A stretch of 64,000 nucleotides of DNA from Olleya marilimosa CAM030 (GTDB lineage: Bacteria; Bacteroidota; Bacteroidia; Flavobacteriales; Flavobacteriaceae): NCBI RefSeq assembly GCF_000518485.1, contig NZ_JADR01000001.1, positions 372,001-436,000 on the forward strand. Reading direction: 5' to 3'. The notes under the pieces were generated by a model. The model was not told where the DNA came from and did no database searches. It saw only the letters and a list, made by a program, of their open reading frames with translations. Of the stretch, positions 8,355-40,152 are shown in pieces. Within the stretch, counting starts at the first letter, position 1. The number at the start of each line of letters is the position of its first letter. Position numbers and translations under genes: made by a program.

Positions 8355-8397
8355 TGACATAAGTCAGCTTTTGTGTTTTAAGTCTCGCTTAAATTTG
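8355..8397 (+). promoter_or_regulatory. ompW promoter with FNR/CRP-like box (TGAC-ATAA-GTCA) and -7 TAAATTTG
   Basis: The palindrome occupies 8355-8366 (centre 8360.5). A perfect -7 element TAAATTTG is at 8390-8397. Centre to first base of the -7 is 29.5 bp, the same distance as at five other promoters in this window, placing the box near -41.5. The leader to ompW is about 26 bases. Confidence 0.65.
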
Positions 8398-31124: not shown

Positions 31125-31886
31125 TTAAGTATTAGTCTGATTCTCTTTTAAGGCTGCTTTCATGCTGTCGTAACCAATTTTATAAATAGCATCGATATTT
31201 CTTTTATCAAAAAGCGCAAACTGACTTAAGGCATGAGGTGCCACTAAAATATCACAATCGGAAAACTTTTGTATATCAGCTTGTACTGCACCAATAGTAA
31301 TGGAGCGTTCAATAATATTATGAAAATGTTTTAATTGCGCTTGTGTTTTGGTTTTGTATAAGTTTAAATAAACACCAATGACTTGATCGCAGTCTTTTTG
31401 TAATAGCTCTACAGGAAAGTTATTTAACACACCACCATCTACATATAATCCTTGTTTCATTTTTATTGGCGAAAACAATCCTGGGAAAGAGGCAGATGCT
31501 AGTACTGGTTTAATTAACTCTCCATCTGTAAACACCTCTGAATCGCCACTTAAAATATTAGTAGCAGTTATAAAAAGTTTTTTGTTTAATGCCCTAAAAT
31601 TATCTTCAGGAAACTGTTTTTTAAAGTAGTTATAATATTTTTCGGCATCAATAAATCCTGGTTTACTAACAGCAAATTTTCTGTAATTAAAAAGCTGTGT
31701 TGTTTTTAAAAAGTCCAACATTTTTTCGCAAGAAAAACCATAAGCATACAATGCGCCAATAATTGCACCAGCACTAGCACCTGCTATATGTGTTGGGAAA
31801 ATGTTGTGTTCTTCTAACGCTTTTATGGCGCCAATATGTGCTGCGCCACGCATACCACCACCAGAAAGGACTAAGCCTATATTCAT
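31125..31886 (-). CDS. Patatin-like phospholipase
   Basis: 253 residues, cytosolic. The oxyanion hole GGGMRG (9-14), nucleophile elbow GASAG (36-40, Ser38) and catalytic Asp in YVDGGVLNNF (Asp150) are all present, so the Ser-Asp dyad is intact. It hydrolyses lipid acyl chains. The start is 7 bases after the stop of the universal stress protein gene, so it is the second gene of that operon and under the FNR-like box at 32789-32800. Confidence 0.92.
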   Translation of the reverse strand: MNIGLVLSGGGMRGAAHIGAIKALEEHNIFPTHIAGASAGAIIGALYAYGFSCEKMLDFLKTTQLFNYRKFAVSKPGFIDAEKYYNYFKKQFPEDNFRALNKKLFITATNILSGDSEVFTDGELIKPVLASASFPGLFSPIKMKQGLYVDGGVLNNFPVELLQKDCDQVIGVYLNLYKTKTQAQLKHFHNIIERSITIGAVQADIQKFSDCDILVAPHALSQFALFDKRNIDAIYKIGYDSMKAALKENQTNT

Positions 31887-31893
31887 GTTTTAA

Positions 31894-32736
31894 TTATTCG
31901 TGAAGCACTAAAAAAGGTACGTCTGTTTGATAACTTATGTTTTCCACTTTGCTATGAAAAAGTATTTGCTGAAAATAATTAAGATTTTTAGCAACCATTG
32001 CAATTATATCTATGTTATTATCTTGTACAAAAGATTGTATAGCTGCTTCAATTTTTGTATTAGTAAGGTAATGAAAATTATGCTTATTAGCACTAAAGTA
32101 ATCTGCAACAAACTCTTTATTTTTTTCTTGATCACTATTTAAATCTGAGTTTTTCTTTGCAATATGCAAAACCCTTAATGTGGCCTCAAATTGTTCTAAA
32201 ATGTCAACTATTGGATGTAAAGTTGTTATGCCATAAAACTGCAAAAAATCTGTAGGAAAGGCCACTTGACGTATGTTTTTAAATTTAGCATTTTCAGGAA
32301 CTACCAAAGTATTGCATTTTACTTTAGTTATTATATCTGCTGTATTGCTACCTAAAATTAGTTTTTCTAATCCAGTAGCACCTTTAGTACCCATGACTAT
32401 AAGATCTATCTTTTTTTCTAAGACCTGCTTTCTAATTGCATCTATAAAAAAATCGGCTTCGTTAATTGTGTAAAAGGCGTGATTTGAATTGTTTGGGAAT
32501 TGTAATGCTATTTTTTTTAAAAGTGATGTTAATTGTTTTTTAGCAGCAACAGTATAAGTGTCTTCAATAACTGCTGAATTGATGTTATAATCTAATGTAT
32601 TTACAGAAATTTCTGATAATCTGTTAACATGCATTAAATAGAATGTACATGGTGTGTTTGCACAAAATTTAATAGCATATTCAATAGCGTTCCAAGAGTT
32701 TTTAGAAAAATCTGTAGGTAATAATATAGATTTCAT
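31894..32736 (-). CDS. Universal stress protein, tandem Usp domains
   Basis: 280 residues. The N-terminal Usp domain starts KSILLPTDFSKNSWNAIEYAI and has the ATP-binding signature IVMGTKGATGLEKLILGSNTADI near 115-137. The second domain (about 150-280) has no clear G-2x-G-9x-G motif, so only the first is likely to bind nucleotide. Universal stress proteins rise under starvation or oxygen limitation. The gene is preceded by an FNR/CRP-like box and forms an operon with the patatin gene. Confidence 0.88.
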   Translation of the reverse strand: MKSILLPTDFSKNSWNAIEYAIKFCANTPCTFYLMHVNRLSEISVNTLDYNINSAVIEDTYTVAAKKQLTSLLKKIALQFPNNSNHAFYTINEADFFIDAIRKQVLEKKIDLIVMGTKGATGLEKLILGSNTADIITKVKCNTLVVPENAKFKNIRQVAFPTDFLQFYGITTLHPIVDILEQFEATLRVLHIAKKNSDLNSDQEKNKEFVADYFSANKHNFHYLTNTKIEAAIQSFVQDNNIDIIAMVAKNLNYFQQILFHSKVENISYQTDVPFLVLHE

Positions 32737-32757: not shown

Positions 32758-32800
32758 CAAATCTATACGTAACATGTGTTTTAAAAAATGATAAAAATCA
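32758..32800 (-). promoter_or_regulatory. usp-patatin promoter with FNR-like box (TGAT-N4-ATCA) and -7 TAGATTTG
   Basis: Box at 32789-32800 (centre 32794.5). The -7 TAGATTTG on the minus strand occupies 32765-32758. Centre to first base of the -7 is 29.5 bp. No -33 TTG at the standard spacing, as expected of an activator-dependent promoter. Confidence 0.75.
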
Positions 32801-32823
32801 TATAGTCTTTAATTAAAGTGTAA

Positions 32824-33873
32824 TTAATTAACTTCCTTAAGTTTCTCTACATCAATTATTTTAATATTACGACCTTCAATTTCTATTAAACCTTGTTTTT
32901 TGAAACTAGAAATAGTCCTAATTAAAGTTTCAGTTGCAATACCAGCAACACTAGCTAAATCATTTCTAGAGATTTTAATGGGCTCTTTAGGTTTGCAATT
33001 TAGTTTCTCTGCAAATTTTAAAATGGTAGTGGCTGTTTTTTTATATACCGAACTGTAAGCCATTTCTAATAATTGATTTTTAACTCCAGATAGATCATCT
33101 GTTAATAGTTGTATTAGCTCTAATGTTAATTTGTGATTGGTGTTTAAAATATTGGTTAATTCATTTTTAGATAGCCCAACTAAATCGGTGTCACTAATTG
33201 TTGTTGCTGTTTCTTGATAAGGAATGTTTTGGGTAAAGGAGGTATAACCAAACAAATCATCTTCTTTATGTAAAGCGGTTGTTAACTCTTTACCTTTTTC
33301 GTCTAATTTGTGACATTTTACTATACCTTTAAGTATTAGATAAATATAATTAGAGTTTTGACCTTCTTTATAAATGTTTTCGTCTTTACCGTAGTTAAAG
33401 ACTTCACCATTATCATCAAAAAAGTTTTTTAAGTCATTTAAATTTCTTAGCGTATCTGTATTATCTTCTTCAAGGTTTTTTTTATCACGTCTGTCCTTTA
33501 AAATTGCAGCTTTTGCTAATCTACTTTCAATAGCACTAATAATTTCGTCTTCGCTAAACGGTTTTGTAATATAATCGTCAGCACCTAAATCCATACCTTT
33601 TCTAACATCTTGTCTTTCGGTTTTTGCAGACAAAAATATAAACGGAATATGCATTGTGCTTTCTTGTTTTGCTAAGCCTTCTAGTACACCATAACCATCT
33701 AATTCTGGCATCATTATATCACAGATAATAATATCAGGATTGGTAGATAAAGCAGCATTTAATCCTAACTTTCCGTTTGATGCGGTTGTTACGTGATAGT
33801 CGGAAAGTTCTAAAAGCTCTTTAGTGTTTTCTCTTAAAACTGCGTCATCTTCAATTAAAAGTATGGTTTTCAT
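32824..33873 (-). CDS. Response regulator with receiver, cyclic-nucleotide-type and CRP/FNR helix-turn-helix domains
   Basis: 349 residues. Receiver domain 1-120 with phospho-acceptor Asp52 (IIICDIMMPELDG), Ser82 and Lys104. Domain 2 (about 150-265) is a CRP-type effector barrel (IYKEGQNSNYIYLILKGIVKCHKL). The C-terminal HTH (about 300-335, SRNDLASVAGIATETLIRTISSFKKQG) has Glu315 and Arg319 in the FNR E-xxx-R spacing (FNR Glu209, Arg213), while FNR Ser212 is replaced by Ile. No N-terminal Cys cluster, so no Fe-S sensing. Its ATG overlaps the kinase stop by one base (TAATG), so the pair is translationally coupled. Likely binds the TGAT-N4-ATCA boxes nearby. Confidence 0.9.
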   Translation of the reverse strand: MKTILLIEDDAVLRENTKELLELSDYHVTTASNGKLGLNAALSTNPDIIICDIMMPELDGYGVLEGLAKQESTMHIPFIFLSAKTERQDVRKGMDLGADDYITKPFSEDEIISAIESRLAKAAILKDRRDKKNLEEDNTDTLRNLNDLKNFFDDNGEVFNYGKDENIYKEGQNSNYIYLILKGIVKCHKLDEKGKELTTALHKEDDLFGYTSFTQNIPYQETATTISDTDLVGLSKNELTNILNTNHKLTLELIQLLTDDLSGVKNQLLEMAYSSVYKKTATTILKFAEKLNCKPKEPIKISRNDLASVAGIATETLIRTISSFKKQGLIEIEGRNIKIIDVEKLKEVN

Positions 33874-35009
33874 TAGTTTGGTTTGTTTGGTATAGTAATA
33901 GTAAAAGTAGAACCTACGTTTTCAATACTTTTAAAACTTATTGTTCCACCTAAATTTTCAATATGTGTTTTAACAATGTTTAATCCAATTCCTGTCCCTT
34001 GGTTTAACAGTGCGTTTTCGGCTCTAAAATAACGATTAAAAATATTTTTTTGATCGTTTTCTGGAATACCAATTCCGTTATCAATAATTGTAAAAGTGGT
34101 ATTGATTTGATCTTGTTGGACTTTTAATTGGATGGTTGTGTTTTCAGGCGAGTATTTTATTGCATTATGTACAAGGTTTGACAATGCTAATTCAATTGTT
34201 TTTTCGTCTTGAATTAAGGATATATCGTCTATGTTTTCTGGATAATTTATTTTTTGTCCTTCTTTTAAAAGCATATTTGCGTTATAAATAACTTCATTTA
34301 TGACCTTACTTAATCTAAACTCTGTAAACTTATAATTTACTTTACCAGATTCTAATTTTTCAACAGATAAAAAGTCGTTTAAAATATTATTTAAATACTG
34401 TACTTTACTGTTTATGGTATTAATATGCTTATCACGTTTATCCTGTTGCTCTGCTAATTTATATTTGCTTAGAAGGATTGAAGAGGTTAAAATACCAGTT
34501 AAAGGTGTTTTAAATTCATGCGAGACTAACGACAAAAATTTTGTTTTTAAATCGTTTAGTTCCTTTTCAATTGCTAATGCTTCGGTAAGCTGTTTAGTGC
34601 GCTCTATAACTGTTTTTTCAAGTTTATCTGTATAATTTTTTCGTTCTGTAATATCTATAGCCAAAGCCATTACATACTTTTTATTCGAAACATTAAATGG
34701 GTTTAAACCGACTTCAATAGGAAAAGTATTACCATCTTTTCGTGCACCATATAGCTCACGTCCTTTGCCCATTGTACGTTTTTCGCTGTTTTTGTAATAC
34801 GTGTCAAATTGGTGTCCATGACCTTTATGGTAGGTTTTGGGGATTAAAATCTCCAATGGTTTATTGTTTAATTCGTCTTTATCATAACCAAACATCTCTT
34901 CTGTAGAAGAGTTTACGGCTATAATTGTTTGGTTTTCATCGACTATCAAAATACCTTCAGATATGGCTTCAGATAGTATTTCAAAAACATCCTGATTAGT
35001 TTTTAGCAT
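33873..35009 (-). CDS. PAS-domain sensor histidine kinase
   Basis: 378 residues without TM helices, hence cytosolic. PAS domain 10-122, then a short coiled stretch, HisKA with phospho-acceptor His164 (SHEFKTPL), and HATPase with N box NAIKYS (Asn282), G1 DNGIGIP (Asp310) and GTGIGLNI. The PAS region resembles FixL: if aligned without gaps, His64 and Arg84 (20 apart, as FixL His200 and Arg220) fall on the haem-contact positions, though many non-haem PAS domains share this look. Partner is the REC-CRP regulator that follows immediately. Confidence 0.9.
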   Translation of the reverse strand: MLKTNQDVFEILSEAISEGILIVDENQTIIAVNSSTEEMFGYDKDELNNKPLEILIPKTYHKGHGHQFDTYYKNSEKRTMGKGRELYGARKDGNTFPIEVGLNPFNVSNKKYVMALAIDITERKNYTDKLEKTVIERTKQLTEALAIEKELNDLKTKFLSLVSHEFKTPLTGILTSSILLSKYKLAEQQDKRDKHINTINSKVQYLNNILNDFLSVEKLESGKVNYKFTEFRLSKVINEVIYNANMLLKEGQKINYPENIDDISLIQDEKTIELALSNLVHNAIKYSPENTTIQLKVQQDQINTTFTIIDNGIGIPENDQKNIFNRYFRAENALLNQGTGIGLNIVKTHIENLGGTISFKSIENVGSTFTITIPNKPN

Positions 35010-35047
35010 ATAGTGTTTAAAACGATATTATATTAAGAATAAAATTA

Positions 35048-35090
35048 CAAAAAAAAGCGAGAGCACGCTGCCTTTTGCTGATTTATATCA
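35048..35090 (-). promoter_or_regulatory. Possible divergent use of the 35079 box for the kinase operon
   Basis: From the box centre 35084.5, the minus-strand sequence 35055-35048 reads TTTTTTTG, one mismatch from TAnnTTTG, at the same 29.5-bp distance. A further TAATTTTA is at 35047-35040. This would make the box bidirectional; less certain than the plus-strand side. Confidence 0.4.
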
Positions 35091-35121
35091 TGAAATACGT
35101 TAAACATTCGGCTTAATTTTA
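35079..35121 (+). promoter_or_regulatory. FNR-like box (TGAT-TTAT-ATCA) and -7 TAATTTTA upstream of the TerB-like gene
   Basis: Box 35079-35090, -7 at 35114-35121; centre to -7 is 29.5 bp. Leader of about 13 bases to the start at 35140. Confidence 0.7.
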
Positions 35122-35139
35122 GGTATTATATTTTTTGAT

Positions 35140-35523
35140 ATGAAAAAGGAAGACCATGCAAATACAATGTTTTACCAAAATCTAGGTAAGTTATTTTATG
35201 CAATAGCCTGTGTAGATGGTATTATTGAAGTTGATGAAATAAACACCTTAAAAACAATGGTGGAAGAGGAGTGGAGTATTAATGAAGATGCATTAACCAT
35301 TTTGGACAGCTTTAATTGGTTGCACATGGATCAAGACTATGATTCTAATACGTGTTTTAATAGTTTTTTGAATTTTTTGAATATGAATAAATCATTATTT
35401 ACTGAAAACAGAAAAACACTAATACTAAAAACAGCAAATGCAATTGCTAGTAGTTTTTCTAATCGTAATAAATCTGAATTAATAATATTAGCGAGACTTG
35501 ATATGGAATTAAAAAAAATATGA
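35140..35523 (+). CDS. TerB-like small protein
   Basis: 127 residues, all helical by pattern, no signal peptide. The segment LGKLFYAIACVDGIIEVDEINTLKTMVEE matches the start of TerB/DjlA-type domains (A..DG.i...E). TerB-like domains bind metals or lipids at the membrane surface in stress systems; a specific role here is unknown. It has an FNR-like box in its promoter. Its TGA overlaps the ATG of the degraded gene behind it (ATGA). Confidence 0.65.
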   Translation: MKKEDHANTMFYQNLGKLFYAIACVDGIIEVDEINTLKTMVEEEWSINEDALTILDSFNWLHMDQDYDSNTCFNSFLNFLNMNKSLFTENRKTLILKTANAIASSFSNRNKSELIILARLDMELKKI

Positions 35524-35735
35524 AAAACCATCTTTTAATTATAGCTGTTTTATCACTATAGACTTGTCAAACTAAAACAGATAAAATCCAACCAACAGAG
35601 CAAAATTTAACTCAATCTGTATACACGTCTGTAATTATCCAACCAGATGGTTTATACCAAGTTAAAGGCTAAAAAAAGATTAGAGTTTTGCAAAACGTAC
35701 AGACAGGATTATCACCATGGAGGATGGTAGGATAA
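35520..35735 (+). pseudogene. Remnant of a lipoprotein, probably an RND-efflux adaptor (HlyD/MFP type)
   Basis: An ATG at 35520 opens MKNHLLIIAVLSL, then an in-frame TAG (35559), then TCQTKTDKIQPTEQNLTQSVYTSV...DGLYQVKG up to a TAA (35670), and after it KKIRVLQNVQTGLSPWRMVG to a TAA (35733), all in one frame. The first part looks like the lipoprotein signal and N-terminus of Bacteroidota RND membrane-fusion proteins (SVYASG.V..-like). The last part looks like their C-terminal K-R-V-x-x-G-L-x-x-G strand. I infer a gene reduced by a large internal deletion and point mutations. No functional product expected. Confidence 0.5.
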
Positions 35736-35761
35736 TTAGCTAATTATTAACTCCTTAAAAC

Positions 35762-35804
35762 TGATTTTAATCATATTATTCTTGTAACTTTAAAAGTAAA
35801 TTTA
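35762..35804 (+). promoter_or_regulatory. FNR-like box (TGAT-TTTA-ATCA) and -7 TAAATTTA of the cbpA operon
   Basis: Box 35762-35773 (centre 35767.5), -7 at 35797-35804, again 29.5 bp apart. Leader to the first gene about 19 bases. Confidence 0.7.
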
Positions 35805-35828
35805 TAATAATTAAACAGGTGTAGGATT

Positions 35829-36029
35829 ATGAAAACAGAACAAGAGTTATTACAACAAATTACTGAGTTAACTTATAAAATTGAGACAGATTATCCAGAA
35901 TTGTATGAATTACTATTAGAAGACCCAAGTACAATTCCCTCCATGGAACATCCAAAAATAAACCCTAAAGTTTTACAAGATTATTTGAACACTTTAAAAC
36001 AGCATATTGAACATCATAAAACAAAATAA
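35829..36029 (+). CDS. Small helical protein upstream of cbpA
   Basis: 66 residues, not recognised. MKTEQELLQQITELTYKIETDYPELYELLLEDPSTIPS suggests a helical hairpin, followed by a C-terminal helix (KVLQDYLNTLKQHIEHHKTK). No Cys, no signal peptide. Its stop is directly followed by the cbpA ATG (TAAATG), so it is the first gene of the chaperone operon and likely works with CbpA/CbpM. It is well placed but too short for a family call. Confidence 0.7.
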   Translation: MKTEQELLQQITELTYKIETDYPELYELLLEDPSTIPSMEHPKINPKVLQDYLNTLKQHIEHHKTK

Positions 36030-36923
36030 ATGGCAGTTATAGATTATTATAAAACGTTGGGTATTTCCAAAACTGCGTCAGATAAGGACATAAAGAAAGC
36101 CTACAGAAAATTAGCCCGAAAATATCATCCAGATTTAAACCCAAACGATAAGGAAGCTGAAAAAAAGTTTAAAGAGATAAATGAAGCTAATGAGGTGTTG
36201 AGCAATCCAGAAAATCGTAAAAAATACGACCAATATGGAGAGCATTGGAAAAACTCTGAAGCCTACGAACAAGCAAAACAACAGCAACAACAGCAACAAC
36301 GTGCATATCAAGGTCAGGCAGGAAATTCTGGAGGTTACAGCGAGCAGGATTTTGAAGATATTTTTGGAAGTATGTTTGGTGGTCAAGCATCTGGAAGACA
36401 AAGAAGCACAAAATTTAGAGGTCAAGATTTTAACGCAGAGCTTCAGTTAGACCTTAAAGATGTTTACACAGAGCACAAACGTACACTTACTGTTAACAAT
36501 AAAAACATTAGAATTACCATTCCTGCAGGAGTAGAAAATGGACAAACCATAAAAATTAAAGGTCATGGTGGAAAAGGTGTAAATGGAGGACCAAATGGCG
36601 ATTTGTATATTCAGTTTTCTATTCAAAATCATTCCAAATTCAAAAGAGATAAAGACAACCTTTTCACTACTGTAGATTTAGATTTATACACTGCACTATT
36701 GGGAGGCGATTTAATGGTAGATACGTTTAATGGTAAAGTAAAATTAACCGTTAAACCAGAAACCCAAAACGGAACAAAAGTGAAGTTAAAAGGCAAAGGA
36801 TTTCCTAAGTATAAAAAAACAGATCAGTTTGGTGATTTATACATAACCTACCAAATAAAAACGCCAACAAAGCTTACAGATAAAGAGAAAGAATTATTTA
36901 CAGAACTTCAAAAACTTAGATAA
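36030..36923 (+). CDS. cbpA: DnaJ-family co-chaperone CbpA
   Basis: 297 residues, the CbpA length. J domain (1-70) with HPD at 33-35 (KYHPDLNP). Then a Q-rich and G-rich linker (about 86-120, EDIFGSMFG), and two C-terminal substrate-binding domains ([49 protein letters not shown]). It lacks the zinc-finger of DnaJ, hence the CbpA class. It stimulates DnaK ATPase. The next gene, cbpM, is its known modulator. Transcribed with the 66-residue gene under an FNR-like box. Confidence 0.94.
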
Positions 36924-36925
36924 TT

Positions 36926-37222
36926 ATGGAAGTAACAGATTTAATTTCTATAACAACTTTTTGCACGCATTATAACGTGCCTACAACATTTATAAATGAT
37001 TTAAAAGATTATGAACTGATTGAAATTGTGGTTTCGGACAACGATAATTATATTAAAACAACACAAATTAGCGAGGTTGAAAAGCTCATGCGTTTACATT
37101 TTGATTTAAATATAAATTTAGAGGGTTTGGATGCAGTTTATAATTTATTACAACGTGTAGAAGACATGCAAAACCAAATAACATCGTTAAATAATAAATT
37201 AAGACTTTACGAAGATTTATAA
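36926..37222 (+). CDS. cbpM: Chaperone modulator CbpM
   Basis: 98 residues, MerR_2-like HTH fold. SITTFCTHYNVPTTFINDLKDYELIEIV and a C-terminal helix with heptads (VYNLLQRVEDMQNQITSLNNKLRLYEDL) match CbpM, which binds the J domain of CbpA and inhibits it. It starts 2 bases after cbpA, the classic cbpA-cbpM order. Confidence 0.85.
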   Translation: MEVTDLISITTFCTHYNVPTTFINDLKDYELIEIVVSDNDNYIKTTQISEVEKLMRLHFDLNINLEGLDAVYNLLQRVEDMQNQITSLNNKLRLYEDL

Positions 37223-37229
37223 TTAACTA

Positions 37230-38132
37230 ATGGACGCAATTCAGCAATGGTTTAAAGATTATCCACTACTTCAAAGTATATTAAAATACCTTGTAATTGT
37301 TGTGTTTGTACTATTATGTGTGCAATTTATTAGACGCTTTTTAAAAAAGAATATAGCCAATACATCAGTTAGATACAAGTCGCAAAAAGGCATCGAGTTA
37401 TTAGGTTATTTTCTGTTAGCTTTTGTTACTGTTTTATACTTTACAGGAAGCATTAAAGACTTTACGGTAACACTTGGTTTGTTGTCTGCTGGATTAGCGT
37501 TTACACTACAAGAGTTAATTTTAAGCATTGCAGGATCAGTGTACATTTTTGTTGTAAAAGTGTATGAGCCAGGAGACAGAATAGAAATTAACGGAATTAA
37601 AGGAGATGTCATTGATGTAGATAGTATTTACACCACAATGATGGAAATTGGGCAATGGGTAGAAAGTGATAATTATACAGGCCGAATTGTAAAACTAAGC
37701 AACGCATTTGTGTTTAAGGGTCCTGTTTACAACTACTCTAAAGATTTCCCATTTATTTGGGACGAGTTTAATTTGCCAATACGTTATGGCTCTGATATTG
37801 AGTTAGCAAAAGCCATAATTATAAAAGCAGCTACAACAACACTTACAGAATACACTAAAGCATCAAAAGATCAATGGAAAGATGTCGTTACAAAATACTA
37901 CATTGAAGATGCAATGGTAGTGCCTACATTGGCAACTACACTAACAGATAATTGGGTTAAATTTAATTTAAGATACATTGTAGATTACAAAAAACGAAGA
38001 GTAACCAAGCACGTATTAAACGATTTAATTAGAAAAGAAATTGAAGCTACAAACGGAAAAGTTGTTTTGGCGTCTCAGACTATTGAATTAATTAAAATTC
38101 CTGATTTAAAAGTTAATGTAAATGAATCCTAA
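37230..38132 (+). CDS. MscS-family mechanosensitive ion channel
   Basis: 300 residues. Two N-terminal TM helices (about 15-35, 53-72), and the pore-lining TM3 region LSAGLAFTLQELILSIAGSVYIF (about 85-107), then the MscS beta domain (VYEPGDRIEINGIKGDVIDVDSIYTTMMEIG) and the C-terminal alpha/beta part. Opens under membrane tension to release solutes. It starts 7 bases after cbpM, so it belongs to the same operon, an unusual link between chaperones and turgor. Confidence 0.88.
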   Translation: MDAIQQWFKDYPLLQSILKYLVIVVFVLLCVQFIRRFLKKNIANTSVRYKSQKGIELLGYFLLAFVTVLYFTGSIKDFTVTLGLLSAGLAFTLQELILSIAGSVYIFVVKVYEPGDRIEINGIKGDVIDVDSIYTTMMEIGQWVESDNYTGRIVKLSNAFVFKGPVYNYSKDFPFIWDEFNLPIRYGSDIELAKAIIIKAATTTLTEYTKASKDQWKDVVTKYYIEDAMVVPTLATTLTDNWVKFNLRYIVDYKKRRVTKHVLNDLIRKEIEATNGKVVLASQTIELIKIPDLKVNVNES

Positions 38133-38158
38133 AGGCATTCGTTTTAAAACAGTTAGAC

Positions 38159-38201
38159 TGATATTTATCATTTAATTTTTAGGAAAGTATTACTACATTT
38201 A
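38159..38201 (+). promoter_or_regulatory. FNR-like box (TGAT-ATTT-ATCA) and -7 TACATTTA
   Basis: Box 38159-38170 (centre 38164.5), -7 at 38194-38201, 29.5 bp apart. Leader of about 24 bases to the PepSY-like gene at 38231. Confidence 0.7.
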
Positions 38202-38230
38202 TTATAATATTAATTTTAAATGTTAGTAAG

Positions 38231-38734
38231 ATGAAAAAAGTAATAATTGGTTTATTTATTTTTGGTTTAACCTTCCAAATGTATGCACAAGATCCAGATC
38301 CTATTAAATTAGACGAAGTAATATTGGTGCATAACTACAAATATCTTAGTAGTACAGACGCAACAGATATGCCTATTGAAGCAGATCAATTGCAAATAAG
38401 AGTAGCTAATTTTGATATTAAAACATTAGATGTTTATGCAGACGAATATGAATTTTATGATGTATATTTTATAATACCAGATGGAAAAATACTTGCTACT
38501 TATGATAGTAATGGAAAAATATTACGAACAGCTGAGAAATATAAAGATGTAGATTTGCCAATGCCAATATTAAAATCTGTATTAAAAAGATTTCCAAATT
38601 GGGACATAACAAAAGATGTGTATTTAGTTAAATATACAGAAGGAGAAGAAGCTAAGAAAAAATACAAAATCACTTTAACAAATGGTGATCAACGTATAAA
38701 AGTTAAATTAGACGCAGAAGGTAATTTTCTATAA
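38231..38734 (+). CDS. Secreted PepSY-like protein
   Basis: 167 residues. Signal peptide ends at QMYAQ (residue 20). The remainder has the pattern seen in BLIP/PepSY-like Bacteroidota proteins: YFIIPDGKILATYDSNGKILRTAEKYKDVDLPMPILKSVLKRFPNWDITKDVYLV, then YKITLTNGDQRIKVKLDAEGNFL. Such domains are thought to inhibit peptidases or bind extracytoplasmic ligands. The own promoter carries an FNR-like box; the next gene (38784) has no separate promoter that I can see. Confidence 0.7.
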   Translation: MKKVIIGLFIFGLTFQMYAQDPDPIKLDEVILVHNYKYLSSTDATDMPIEADQLQIRVANFDIKTLDVYADEYEFYDVYFIIPDGKILATYDSNGKILRTAEKYKDVDLPMPILKSVLKRFPNWDITKDVYLVKYTEGEEAKKKYKITLTNGDQRIKVKLDAEGNFL

Positions 38735-38783
38735 TATTTTTAACTTAATTTAATAAAATTCACAGCAAATAAATAAAATAGAT

Positions 38784-39248
38784 ATGTTTAAAAATTTAGA
38801 AGAAAAAGAAATCGAATATATTTTAGAGAACAATTATATTGGACAATTGGGTTACATTTTTAACAATACACCTTATGTTGTGCCTATTACTTATTTTTTT
38901 GATAAAGAAAGTAACGCAATAATATGTTATTCTGGAGATGGTCATAAAATGAATGCGATGCGTAAAAACCCAAAAGTTTCATTGCAAATATCAGATGTTA
39001 ATACTGTTACTAATTGGAAATCTGTATTAGTACATGGTAATTTTGAACAGCATTTTGGTAGTGATGCTAAAGCGTACTTGCACAAGTTTTCTTTAGGTAT
39101 TAAAGATATTATTTTAGAGAAAGAACACAGTAAAGCTAACTTTATAAGTGACTTTTCAAGTAAGATTTATAAGGATGATATTCCGGCTGTATTTTTAATT
39201 AATATAGAAGCTATAACAGGTAAAAAGCGTTTAGATTTTAAAGCCTAA
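38784..39248 (+). CDS. Pyridoxamine 5'-phosphate oxidase-like flavin-binding protein
   Basis: 154 residues. The FMN-binding split barrel signature is seen: LEENNYIGQLGYIFNNTPYVVPITYFFD-like start, VICYSGDGHKMNAMRKNPKVSLQISD, and WKSVLVHGNFEQHF. This is the nitroimidazole-resistance/PNPOx-like clan, binding FMN, F420 or haem. The reaction is unknown. It lies 49 bases behind the PepSY-like gene and is probably in its transcript, so also under the FNR-like box. Confidence 0.82.
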   Translation: MFKNLEEKEIEYILENNYIGQLGYIFNNTPYVVPITYFFDKESNAIICYSGDGHKMNAMRKNPKVSLQISDVNTVTNWKSVLVHGNFEQHFGSDAKAYLHKFSLGIKDIILEKEHSKANFISDFSSKIYKDDIPAVFLINIEAITGKKRLDFKA

Positions 39249-39274
39249 TACTTATAAGTTTACAAATTAAACAT

Positions 39275-39304
39275 AAAAAAAAGAGCTATTAACTAGCTCT
39301 TTTT
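39275..39304. terminator. Terminator between the PNPOx-like and sigma-like genes
   Basis: Arms AAAGAGCTA / TAGCTCTTT with A and T runs on the two sides, between convergent genes. Confidence 0.85.
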
Positions 39305-39322
39305 AGTTCTTTTCTAAATAGT

Positions 39323-40093
39323 TTAACTATATAAATATCTATTAAATAAACTGACCTGTAAAGCCTGTTTGGCATTGTTTAGTAACGTTTTAACTTCGTT
39401 TATTTTAGATTTTCTAATTAAAGCGATTTCTTCTAAGGATAAATGTTCATTAGTAAACAATTCAAAAACTTGACGCATGGCATGAGGCAAATTTCTTATA
39501 ACTAAAGCTGTATGATTTTTTAAAACATCTTGCTTTAAGTGGTTATCTATTTTTTCAATAAAATCAGCTTCGTTTTCTTCAATAAAAATAGGTTTTAGTT
39601 CATAATCGTTATGATTGTATGAACTGTCATTTAATTCTTCAATTAATAGTAAATCTCCATCTGCATCTTTAGTATATTTTTCTTCCATAGCATCCCATTC
39701 AGGTTTAGAATAAGTGTCAATATTTTTAAAAAATAACTCATTAAATTCTTCTTCAACTTGAATATCTTTCATTATTTCATCAACTTTTAAGTATAACCAA
39801 GCGTAGAAGTCTTTTTCCTGTTTCACCTCTTCAATATGATCATAAATTTCAATAAAAAGCTGATCAATAATATCGTCACCTTTATATTTTCCTTTAGAAA
39901 AATGTCCTTGGCTAATGTAAACATTTAGTTGCCTATTAATATAATTCCTTAAAATTGGTAAAATTTTTAAAACAAGATTATTAAAAGTCTCTTTATCTCT
40001 ATTCTTTTTAAACTGAAGAAGACTAGCGTGAGATTGTTGTACAAATAAGCGAAATTCTTTTTTGTTTTGATAGTATTTAATATCTGTATTCAT
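39323..40093 (-). CDS. Sigma-70-family protein with long acidic insert
   Basis: 256 residues. Residues 40-115 resemble sigma region 2 (ILRNYINRQLNVY, KGDDIIDQLFIEIYDHIEEV, DFYAWLYLKVDEIM). Residues 195-245 fit region 4 (IRNLPHAMRQVFELFTNEHLSLEEIALIRKSKINEVKTLLNNAKQAL). Between them is an acidic insert of about 75 residues (EEEFNELFF...FIEENEAD), longer than in ordinary ECF factors and without anti-sigma partner nearby. The promoter has an FNR-like box, so it could act below the REC-CRP regulator as a second-level regulator. Weak sequence similarity; call is moderate. Confidence 0.7.
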   Translation of the reverse strand: MNTDIKYYQNKKEFRLFVQQSHASLLQFKKNRDKETFNNLVLKILPILRNYINRQLNVYISQGHFSKGKYKGDDIIDQLFIEIYDHIEEVKQEKDFYAWLYLKVDEIMKDIQVEEEFNELFFKNIDTYSKPEWDAMEEKYTKDADGDLLLIEELNDSSYNHNDYELKPIFIEENEADFIEKIDNHLKQDVLKNHTALVIRNLPHAMRQVFELFTNEHLSLEEIALIRKSKINEVKTLLNNAKQALQVSLFNRYLYS

Positions 40094-40109
40094 AGTTATG
40101 TGTTTGAAA

Positions 40110-40152
40110 TAAAATTACTTAAAAAATATATTGTAAAGTATGATATTAATCA
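40110..40152 (-). promoter_or_regulatory. FNR-like box (TGAT-N4-ATCA) and -7 TAATTTTA for the sigma-like gene
   Basis: Box 40141-40152 (centre 40146.5). On the minus strand the -7 TAATTTTA covers 40117-40110, 29.5 bp away. The plus-strand side (40176) shows no -7, so the box points to the sigma-like gene and not to the sugar transporter. Confidence 0.7.

Follow-up and report, generated by a model that had tools for sequence, protein, structure and literature searches.

Which regulator switches on a run of stress genes in a marine flavobacterium, and in response to what signal? Bacteroidota promoters differ from those of Escherichia coli, and regulons are hard to read from sequence in this phylum. 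The question is raised by a stretch of 64,000 nucleotides from Olleya marilimosa CAM030 (contig NZ_JADR01000001.1, positions 372,001 to 436,000), which is referred to throughout, at its full length, as the window. A first-pass annotation had placed five boxes of the form TGAT-N4-ATCA at one fixed distance from a -7 element between positions 32758 and 40152, around a regulator that fuses a receiver to a Crp-type domain (REC-CRP), and had proposed a compact stress or low-oxygen regulon. We consider it probable that a FixL-like kinase signals through the fused REC-CRP to a dormancy-type stress island by way of class II boxes, with overlap from a separate FNR-like protein.

A single box-to-promoter distance in the island

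The pattern TGATNNNNATCA (TGAT-N4-ATCA) occurs seven times in the window, where 1.32 would be expected; none of 100 shuffles reached seven. Five occurrences lie in the island (32789, 35079, 35762, 38159 and 40141); all are exact with an A/T-only N4, as first described, and each is followed in the direction of its gene by TAnnTTTR after exactly 23 bases (box centre to first base, 29.5 bp). The remaining two (16138 and 24796) lie outside the island and lack TAnnTTTR at this gap, and the remaining gaps between 5 and 44 yielded, taken together, four single box/TAnnTTTR pairs in the window. Simulated first-order Markov windows (n=400) held the composite at a mean of 0.01 and a maximum of one, which makes the argument against a random match stronger than it had originally been put. 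The promoters, all found as pattern matches, are as follows.

32789..32800, minus strand: box of the universal stress protein promoter, TGATTTTTATCA
32758..32765, minus strand: -7 element of the universal stress protein promoter, TAGATTTG
35079..35121, plus strand: promoter with box TGATTTATATCA, gap 23, -7 element TAATTTTA
35762..35804, plus strand: promoter with box TGATTTTAATCA, gap 23, -7 element TAAATTTA
38159..38201, plus strand: promoter with box TGATATTTATCA, gap 23, -7 element TACATTTA
40110..40152, minus strand: promoter with box TGATTAATATCA, gap 23, -7 element TAATTTTA
8355..8397, plus strand: outlying ompW composite promoter TGACATAAGTCA, TGAC form (OmpW match E 1e-27, under the NCBIfam cut-off)

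The ompW composite, put forward as a sixth member, fits the geometry; yet it lies 24 kb beyond 32758-40152, and its box is of the TGAC form often seen at FNR-type genes. Leaders run to about 12-25 nt by coordinates, taking the first T of the -7 element as -12. In class II CRP/FNR promoters of E. coli the activator is centred at -41.5, a position that the island boxes would roughly share; unlike those promoters, the island has -7 TAnnTTTR in place of the -10 element and a gap fixed at 23.

Across the O. marilimosa genome, TGAY-N4-RTCA-N23-TAnnTTTR occurs 17 times against three for the reversed pattern. When the gap was left free (9-39) the counts became 66 and 46, a shrinking excess that is expected if only one gap matters. 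Four further TGAT-N4-ATCA composites lie beyond the window in this genome, two of these within open reading frames (ORFs), and a closed regulon is not supported.

Conservation of the promoter layout

To follow the layout across relatives we used 80 loci chosen by the regulator alone (1.5 Mb; the best 80 of 589 candidates), among which at least two, L175 and L200, come from organisms already present in an earlier set of relatives, and some species appear twice. These loci contain 328 TGAY-N4-RTCA/TAnnTTTR pairs at gap 23 and at most eight at each of the other gaps between 5 and 45, as in class II Crp/Fnr promoters, where the box overlaps the upstream core element at a set distance. In 649 kb made up of the window and 31 fetched stretches, gap 23 accounted for 104 pairs and other gaps from 5 to 45 for 0-4 each; these regions were picked around regulators and boxes, so that the density of composites is biased and the gap is not. 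Three control palindromes gave no pair at gap 23 in the same 649 kb. TTG was found 17-21 bases ahead of the -7 element in 37 of the 328 composites, which is about chance level by a rough estimate made without a computed control. Nearly all composite cores (320 of 328) fall outside ORFs, with eight inside (more than 25 nt from the ORF ends), and 305 have a gene start within 250 nt, at a median of 24 nt past the -7 element, the other 23 having none.

The position directly past REC-CRP could be scored in 79 loci, the regulator ORF not being delimited in one more: a strict composite is present in 59, and one other promoter is cut by a contig end, the composite being visible there too. Past the regulator, the first two kilobase bins hold 0.91 and 0.52 composites per kb; the bin directly upstream of the operon holds 0.53, and the others 0.00-0.25, save 0.55 in the last bin, to which only 11 loci contribute. 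Among regulator-bearing members of the genus, the stress-protein 12-mer TGATTTTTATCA and the gap of 23 are identical in all seven and the -7 element is TAGATTTG in six, with a variable spacer middle (read by eye). Conservation upstream of orthologues is thereby borne out, both within the genus and past the regulator in the wider set.

A scan of 60 genomes returned 221 composite TGAT sites against 16 for the reversed pattern (the latter summed by hand). A phylum scan of 148 genomes, made with the TAnnTTTG composite and with reversed counts again summed by hand, gave 117 composites against two in 14 family members other than O. marilimosa, 69 against four in 20 other genomes of the class outside the order, and 39 against five in 111 other genomes of the phylum. 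The fixed geometry looks like a layout used apparently generally by Crp/Fnr activators of the family, and is no proof of which regulator binds.

A fused regulator beside a FixL-like kinase

The putative signalling pair is encoded by two genes on the minus strand, the regulator ORF overlapping the end of the kinase ORF, after which come a universal stress protein gene and a patatin-like gene.

33873..35009, minus strand: sensor histidine kinase, PAS (FixL/DosP-like)-HisKA-HATPase (Pfam; FixL is the best PDB match)
32824..33873, minus strand: REC-CRP response regulator with receiver, cNMP-binding-like domain and Crp helix-turn-helix (Pfam)

The closest named relatives found for the regulator are from Winogradskyella, Flaviramulus, Gelidibacter and Algibacter at 71-74% identity, a comparison from which records nearest to the window were possibly excluded. 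Its receiver (Pfam E 2.6e-28) has E8, D9, D10, D52, S82 and K104 invariant in 16 aligned sequences, that is, the acidic pair, phospho-aspartate, Ser/Thr and lysine of a response regulator. The cNMP-binding domain (PF00027) and the Crp helix-turn-helix (PF13545) both score above cut-off, as in the Crp/Fnr superfamily. The cAMP phosphate-binding cassette of CRP has the residues FGE...RS; the window protein reads FGYTSF...ETA (alignment read by eye) and does not qualify as a cAMP receptor. Nor is a set of cluster cysteines conserved like the four of an FNR iron-sulfur protein, the sole invariant cysteine in the 16 sequences being C51, within the receiver. The best NCBIfam match of the Crp part is FixK, under cut-off; this part also matches the FixK2 structure, with mycobacterial Crp-family structures scoring slightly higher. 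In a tree of 55 rows, which includes about a quarter of the 80 loci, REC-CRP separates from 14 FNR proteins with branch support of 100/100, and a clade B forms its own group.

In clade B (L100, L101-L105 and L090) the sister REC-CRP is paired with a larger kinase and situated in a stress island of its own. The genes there include YtxH, a ferritin-like protein of Dps type, PEP synthase, oleate hydratase and a paralogue of the sigma-like gene at 39323 in the window. Clade B operators have forms such as TGACCTAGGTCA, likewise with gap 23.

Compared with the PDB, the kinase PAS domain has FixL as its top match (E 7e-13). The 17 matches comprise seven FixL, six DosP/EcDOS, one other multi-sensor histidine kinase and three that are blue-light receptors or a fusion of such a receptor with FixL; FixL or DosP/EcDOS thus make up 13 of the 17 and 13 of the top 14, and the three blue-light-type (LOV) matches are weaker than 1e-5. 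His64 aligns with the FixL histidine that we take to be the haem ligand, in the F helix, and Arg84 with the arginine of the FixL GxGR/GxDR motif, as would be predicted for a FixL-type sensor. Histidine is kept at position 64 in 68 of 76 kinases adjoining the regulator, a count in which another PAS may be the one matched where a kinase has several; 3 of the 79 loci have no such upstream ORF. Among 16 PAS_9 matches in the O. marilimosa genome (two under the family cut-off), the histidine segment is found in this kinase only, the other 15 being gapped there. The low-oxygen idea of the first-pass annotation, which did not mention the FixL-like PAS of the adjacent kinase, gains support from it; oxygen as the signal is something that we infer.

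In the model that we favour, the PAS-HisKA-HATPase kinase is probably haem-bound and would be kept off by O2. At low oxygen it would phosphorylate the receiver of the REC-CRP encoded directly after it, and the phosphorylated REC-CRP would bind TGAY-N4-RTCA centred at about -41.5, acting as a class II Crp/Fnr activator that replaces the -33 element, with 23 bases to the -7 TAnnTTTR. The genes induced would be universal stress proteins, the CbpA/CbpM/MscS unit, a flavin-binding protein, a sigma-like factor and others, a putative set for dormancy or survival at low oxygen. A separate FNR-like protein would recognize a nearly identical box, very likely acting on some of these promoters. What the sequence shows is the operon, the boxes and their gap, the conservation of both, the classes of target, the domain make-up, and the conserved phosphorylation and histidine residues. 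We infer haem binding, the O2 signal, phosphotransfer, DNA binding and class II activation.

It is rather unlikely that REC-CRP binds the boxes in answer to a signal other than oxygen, the PAS domain having lost its haem or sensing NO, CO, redox state or another ligand, an alternative that is compatible with FNR overlap. The likeness to FixL on which oxygen sensing is predicted comes from sequence alone, and G002, of the same genus, has lysine in place of Arg84 while His64 is missing in a few relatives; against this, haem PAS domains dominate the PDB matches with LOV-type domains far behind, the histidine is retained in most of the kinases, and both the kinds of target gene and the sharing of FNR-type sites are in keeping with low oxygen.

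Which regulator uses the boxes

The O. marilimosa genome also encodes an FNR-like protein (C5:129.7-130.4 kb, beside cbb3 genes; best NCBIfam match Fnr, under cut-off), which has a CxxC motif and no receiver. The cbb3 and hemN promoters of the FNR islands have the same box core and the same gap of 23. One flavobacterial FNR-like protein, at L107:9703-10437, has CEHC near its start and further cysteines, in a spacing unlike that of E. coli FNR.

It is therefore reasonable to ask whether the five boxes are ordinary FNR boxes of the protein beside cbb3, REC-CRP being merely co-resident or active elsewhere. Given the FNR-like protein in the same genome, the identical core and gap at FNR-island sites, and such boxes at universal stress protein and 127-residue protein promoters of genomes that lack REC-CRP, this has some appeal; we nevertheless hold it to be unlikely, for three reasons. 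First, the boxes cluster around REC-CRP in the 80 loci. Second, half-site base 5 is less strict directly past REC-CRP, where it is A in 68 of 120 half-sites, than in FNR islands, where it is A in 63 of 72 (p 6e-6, or 0.0025 for unique 12-mers, in tests that here and below take related sites as independent and hence overstate significance). Third, clade B islands have a site form of their own, TGACC-NN-GGTCA: TGACC half-sites number 33 of 66 there; the corresponding counts are 5 of 108 for A islands, 2 of 72 for FNR islands and 62 of 656 for the 80 loci. Since clade B has its own form in its own island, we argue that REC-CRP proteins bind their local sites, and together the three observations are evidence that REC-CRP also uses the sites around it. 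Base 4 of the half-site also shifts, with C in 27 of 108 cases for A islands and in 31 of 72 for FNR islands (p 0.015); the 80 loci have C in 229 of 656.

Several observations weigh against the preferred model. The regulator operon in the window has no box at gap 23, the nearest -7 match being at gap 31. The promoter past REC-CRP is a box without a strict -7 element in 15 of 79 loci and has neither in 4 of 79. His64 is replaced in 6 of 76 kinases and unaligned in 2 of 76, and the base-5 difference may partly reflect shared ancestry. TGAT-N4-ATCA composites occur in genomes that lack REC-CRP, at cbb3 (G026), at NosZ units (G014 and G017, the name being given by NCBIfam in G014), at a universal stress protein unit (G017) and at other genes. 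In G008 and G009, of the same genus and without the regulator, the syntenic gene for a 127-residue protein keeps its composite box, TGATTAATGTCA or TGATTTATGTCA. Because box and gap recur at the FNR island and in genomes without REC-CRP, the geometry is shared and cannot serve, as had been supposed, as the mark of one regulon. Ownership of the five boxes by REC-CRP, also part of the original proposal, is not supported as put: overlap is likely, and some of the island promoters are very likely targets of the FNR-like protein as well.

Three further ideas were discarded. The O. marilimosa genome suggested a rule by which TGAT would mark REC-CRP and TGAC FNR; cbb3 sites beside FNR in G005, G006, G022 and G026 are TGAT-N4-ATCA, and many REC-CRP-linked sites are TGAC. 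The presence or absence of REC-CRP bore no clean relation to the genome-wide number of boxes. The recognition helix reads E-x-x-I-R in nearly all rows of all three groups (T for I in G034), and gives no readout of specificity.

That the boxes repress, as their overlap with the expected -33 position might suggest, or that the pattern is chance in A/T-rich intergenic DNA, is very improbable, given a fixed class II placement without an evident -33 TTG, which fits activation, and the gap histograms, reversed-pattern controls and conservation, which exclude chance.

Target genes and the island in the window

The composites of the 80 loci precede 303 distinct target genes, which fall into 43 single-linkage clusters. 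Universal stress proteins form the largest, with 153 of the 303 genes in 72 loci, and 152 of these match the window protein; the description of the targets as a coherent stress set around REC-CRP holds, half of them being of this one class. In most of the 79 loci, the gene that comes after the regulator has a similar start (read by eye). The family of the 127-residue protein contributes 38 target genes in 37 of the 80 loci; it is conserved in these islands, and its tested members have no Pfam or NCBIfam match. Other clusters are a 149-residue protein without a name (16), S30AE ribosome-associated proteins (14), thioredoxin (7), presumably CcoS-like proteins (7) and Hsp20 (4), the S30AE, thioredoxin and Hsp20 names coming from one representative sequence each. 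The kinase itself is a box target in one locus of the 80 (L165).

The genes of the island in the window are listed here, the first two past the regulator and the others on the opposite flank.

31894..32736, minus strand: universal stress protein, first gene past the regulator (Pfam Usp E 3.7e-25)
31125..31886, minus strand: patatin-like phospholipase, second gene of the stress-protein unit, without its own composite box (Pfam Patatin E 1.8e-37)
35140..35523, plus strand: small protein of 127 residues, no family match
35829..36029, plus strand: 66-residue protein, no family assigned in Pfam and NCBIfam scans
36030..36923, plus strand: CbpA/DnaJ-type co-chaperone (NCBIfam DnaJ E 6e-81 and curved DNA-binding protein E 3e-60, both under cut-off)
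36926..37222, plus strand: MerR_2 protein (Pfam MerR_2 E 1e-26), which we take to be CbpM-like
37230..38132, plus strand: MscS-type mechanosensitive channel (NCBIfam MscS E 2e-8, under cut-off)
38231..38734, plus strand: PepSY-like secreted protein (Pfam PepSY_like E 1.4e-4, under cut-off)
38784..39248, plus strand: PNPOx-like flavin-binding protein, without its own composite box (Pfam Pyridox_ox_2 E 7.5e-12)
39323..40093, minus strand: divergent sigma-70/ECF-like protein (NCBIfam sigma70-ECF E 5e-8, under cut-off)

The 127-residue protein had been called TerB-like, a name that we drop: no match was found in Pfam at E 0.01 or in NCBIfam at E 0.001. At the end of its gene, 35520-35740 is an internal-deletion scar made up of 48 N-terminal residues of a lipoprotein (62% identity to a protein of G001) and 18 C-terminal residues of an ABC-type ATPase; G001, G003, G005 and G006 have the matching ORFs, presumably of a transporter, intact between the 127-residue gene and the CbpA unit. 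The sigma-like protein (39323-40093), a box target in the window, has a long insert, and copies 48-63% identical to it occur in clade B islands (L100:6769-7539; L101:11658-12435, two ORFs as read; L103:12472-13248); it may be a cascade step that links the two types of island. In several islands a beta-CASP-type metallo-beta-lactamase nuclease (L108:1516-2889 and homologues; NCBIfam under cut-off) and an upstream gene, presumably of ATP-cone type, lie among universal stress proteins.

Comparison with known systems

By its output domain, the system is a member of neither FixL-FixJ-FixK nor DosR/OsdR. With the FixL-FixJ-FixK cascade of Alphaproteobacteria it shares a FixL-like PAS kinase and a Crp-type output closest in NCBIfam, under cut-off, to FixK, and TGAT-N4-ATCA is the core of FixK-like boxes. 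Unlike that cascade, which has a separate FixJ (receiver plus LuxR-type helix-turn-helix) and FixK, it has the receiver fused directly to the Crp domain, which removes one transcriptional step; the -7 element is that of Bacteroidota and the targets are stress proteins.

DosR and OsdR are NarL-type regulators. The DosS/T-DosR (DevR) and OsdR systems of actinobacteria resemble the island in that a two-component system adjoins a region rich in universal stress proteins together with a PNPOx-like protein. They differ in the operator and in the output, which here is a Crp-type helix-turn-helix and not a NarL/LuxR-type domain, so the likeness is at most one of function, between output domains that are not homologous. 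According to one study (PMC5069765), the signal of DevR is hypoxia and the predicted OsdR regulon includes universal stress proteins, nitroreductase, pyridoxamine 5'-phosphate oxidase and pyruvate phosphate dikinase.

The FNR-type promoters of Flavobacteriaceae have the same box core and gap; unlike REC-CRP, their regulator is a separate protein with CxxC and no receiver, and belongs to a separate, fully supported clade. Among the papers listed in a literature search, none described a REC-CRP regulon or promoter grammar of this kind for Flavobacteriaceae, which is weak evidence as subscription journals were mostly outside its coverage.

A bolder version of the model, to which we give an even chance, is that in marine flavobacteria the rhizobial FixL-FixJ-FixK cascade has shrunk to two proteins, a haem-PAS kinase and a REC-CRP in direct control of a dormancy island like that of DosR. 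The REC-CRP proteins of clades A and B would each have an island and an operator form of their own, and the whole would overlie FNR through a common, rigid class II grammar.

Implications

The invariant distance between box and -7 element allows a low-noise listing of Crp/Fnr-type promoters, with their orientation and likely starts, across the Flavobacteriaceae, a large marine group. If the model is true, the box, 23 bases and -7 TAnnTTTR would amount to a promoter grammar legible from sequence, and FixL-type sensing and dormancy-type islands would have been joined through a different output domain. The two REC-CRP clades with their differing operators offer a test case for the evolution of Crp-type specificity. 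For the organisms themselves, the locus is a conserved stress-survival island of marine flavobacteria, probably switched on at low oxygen.

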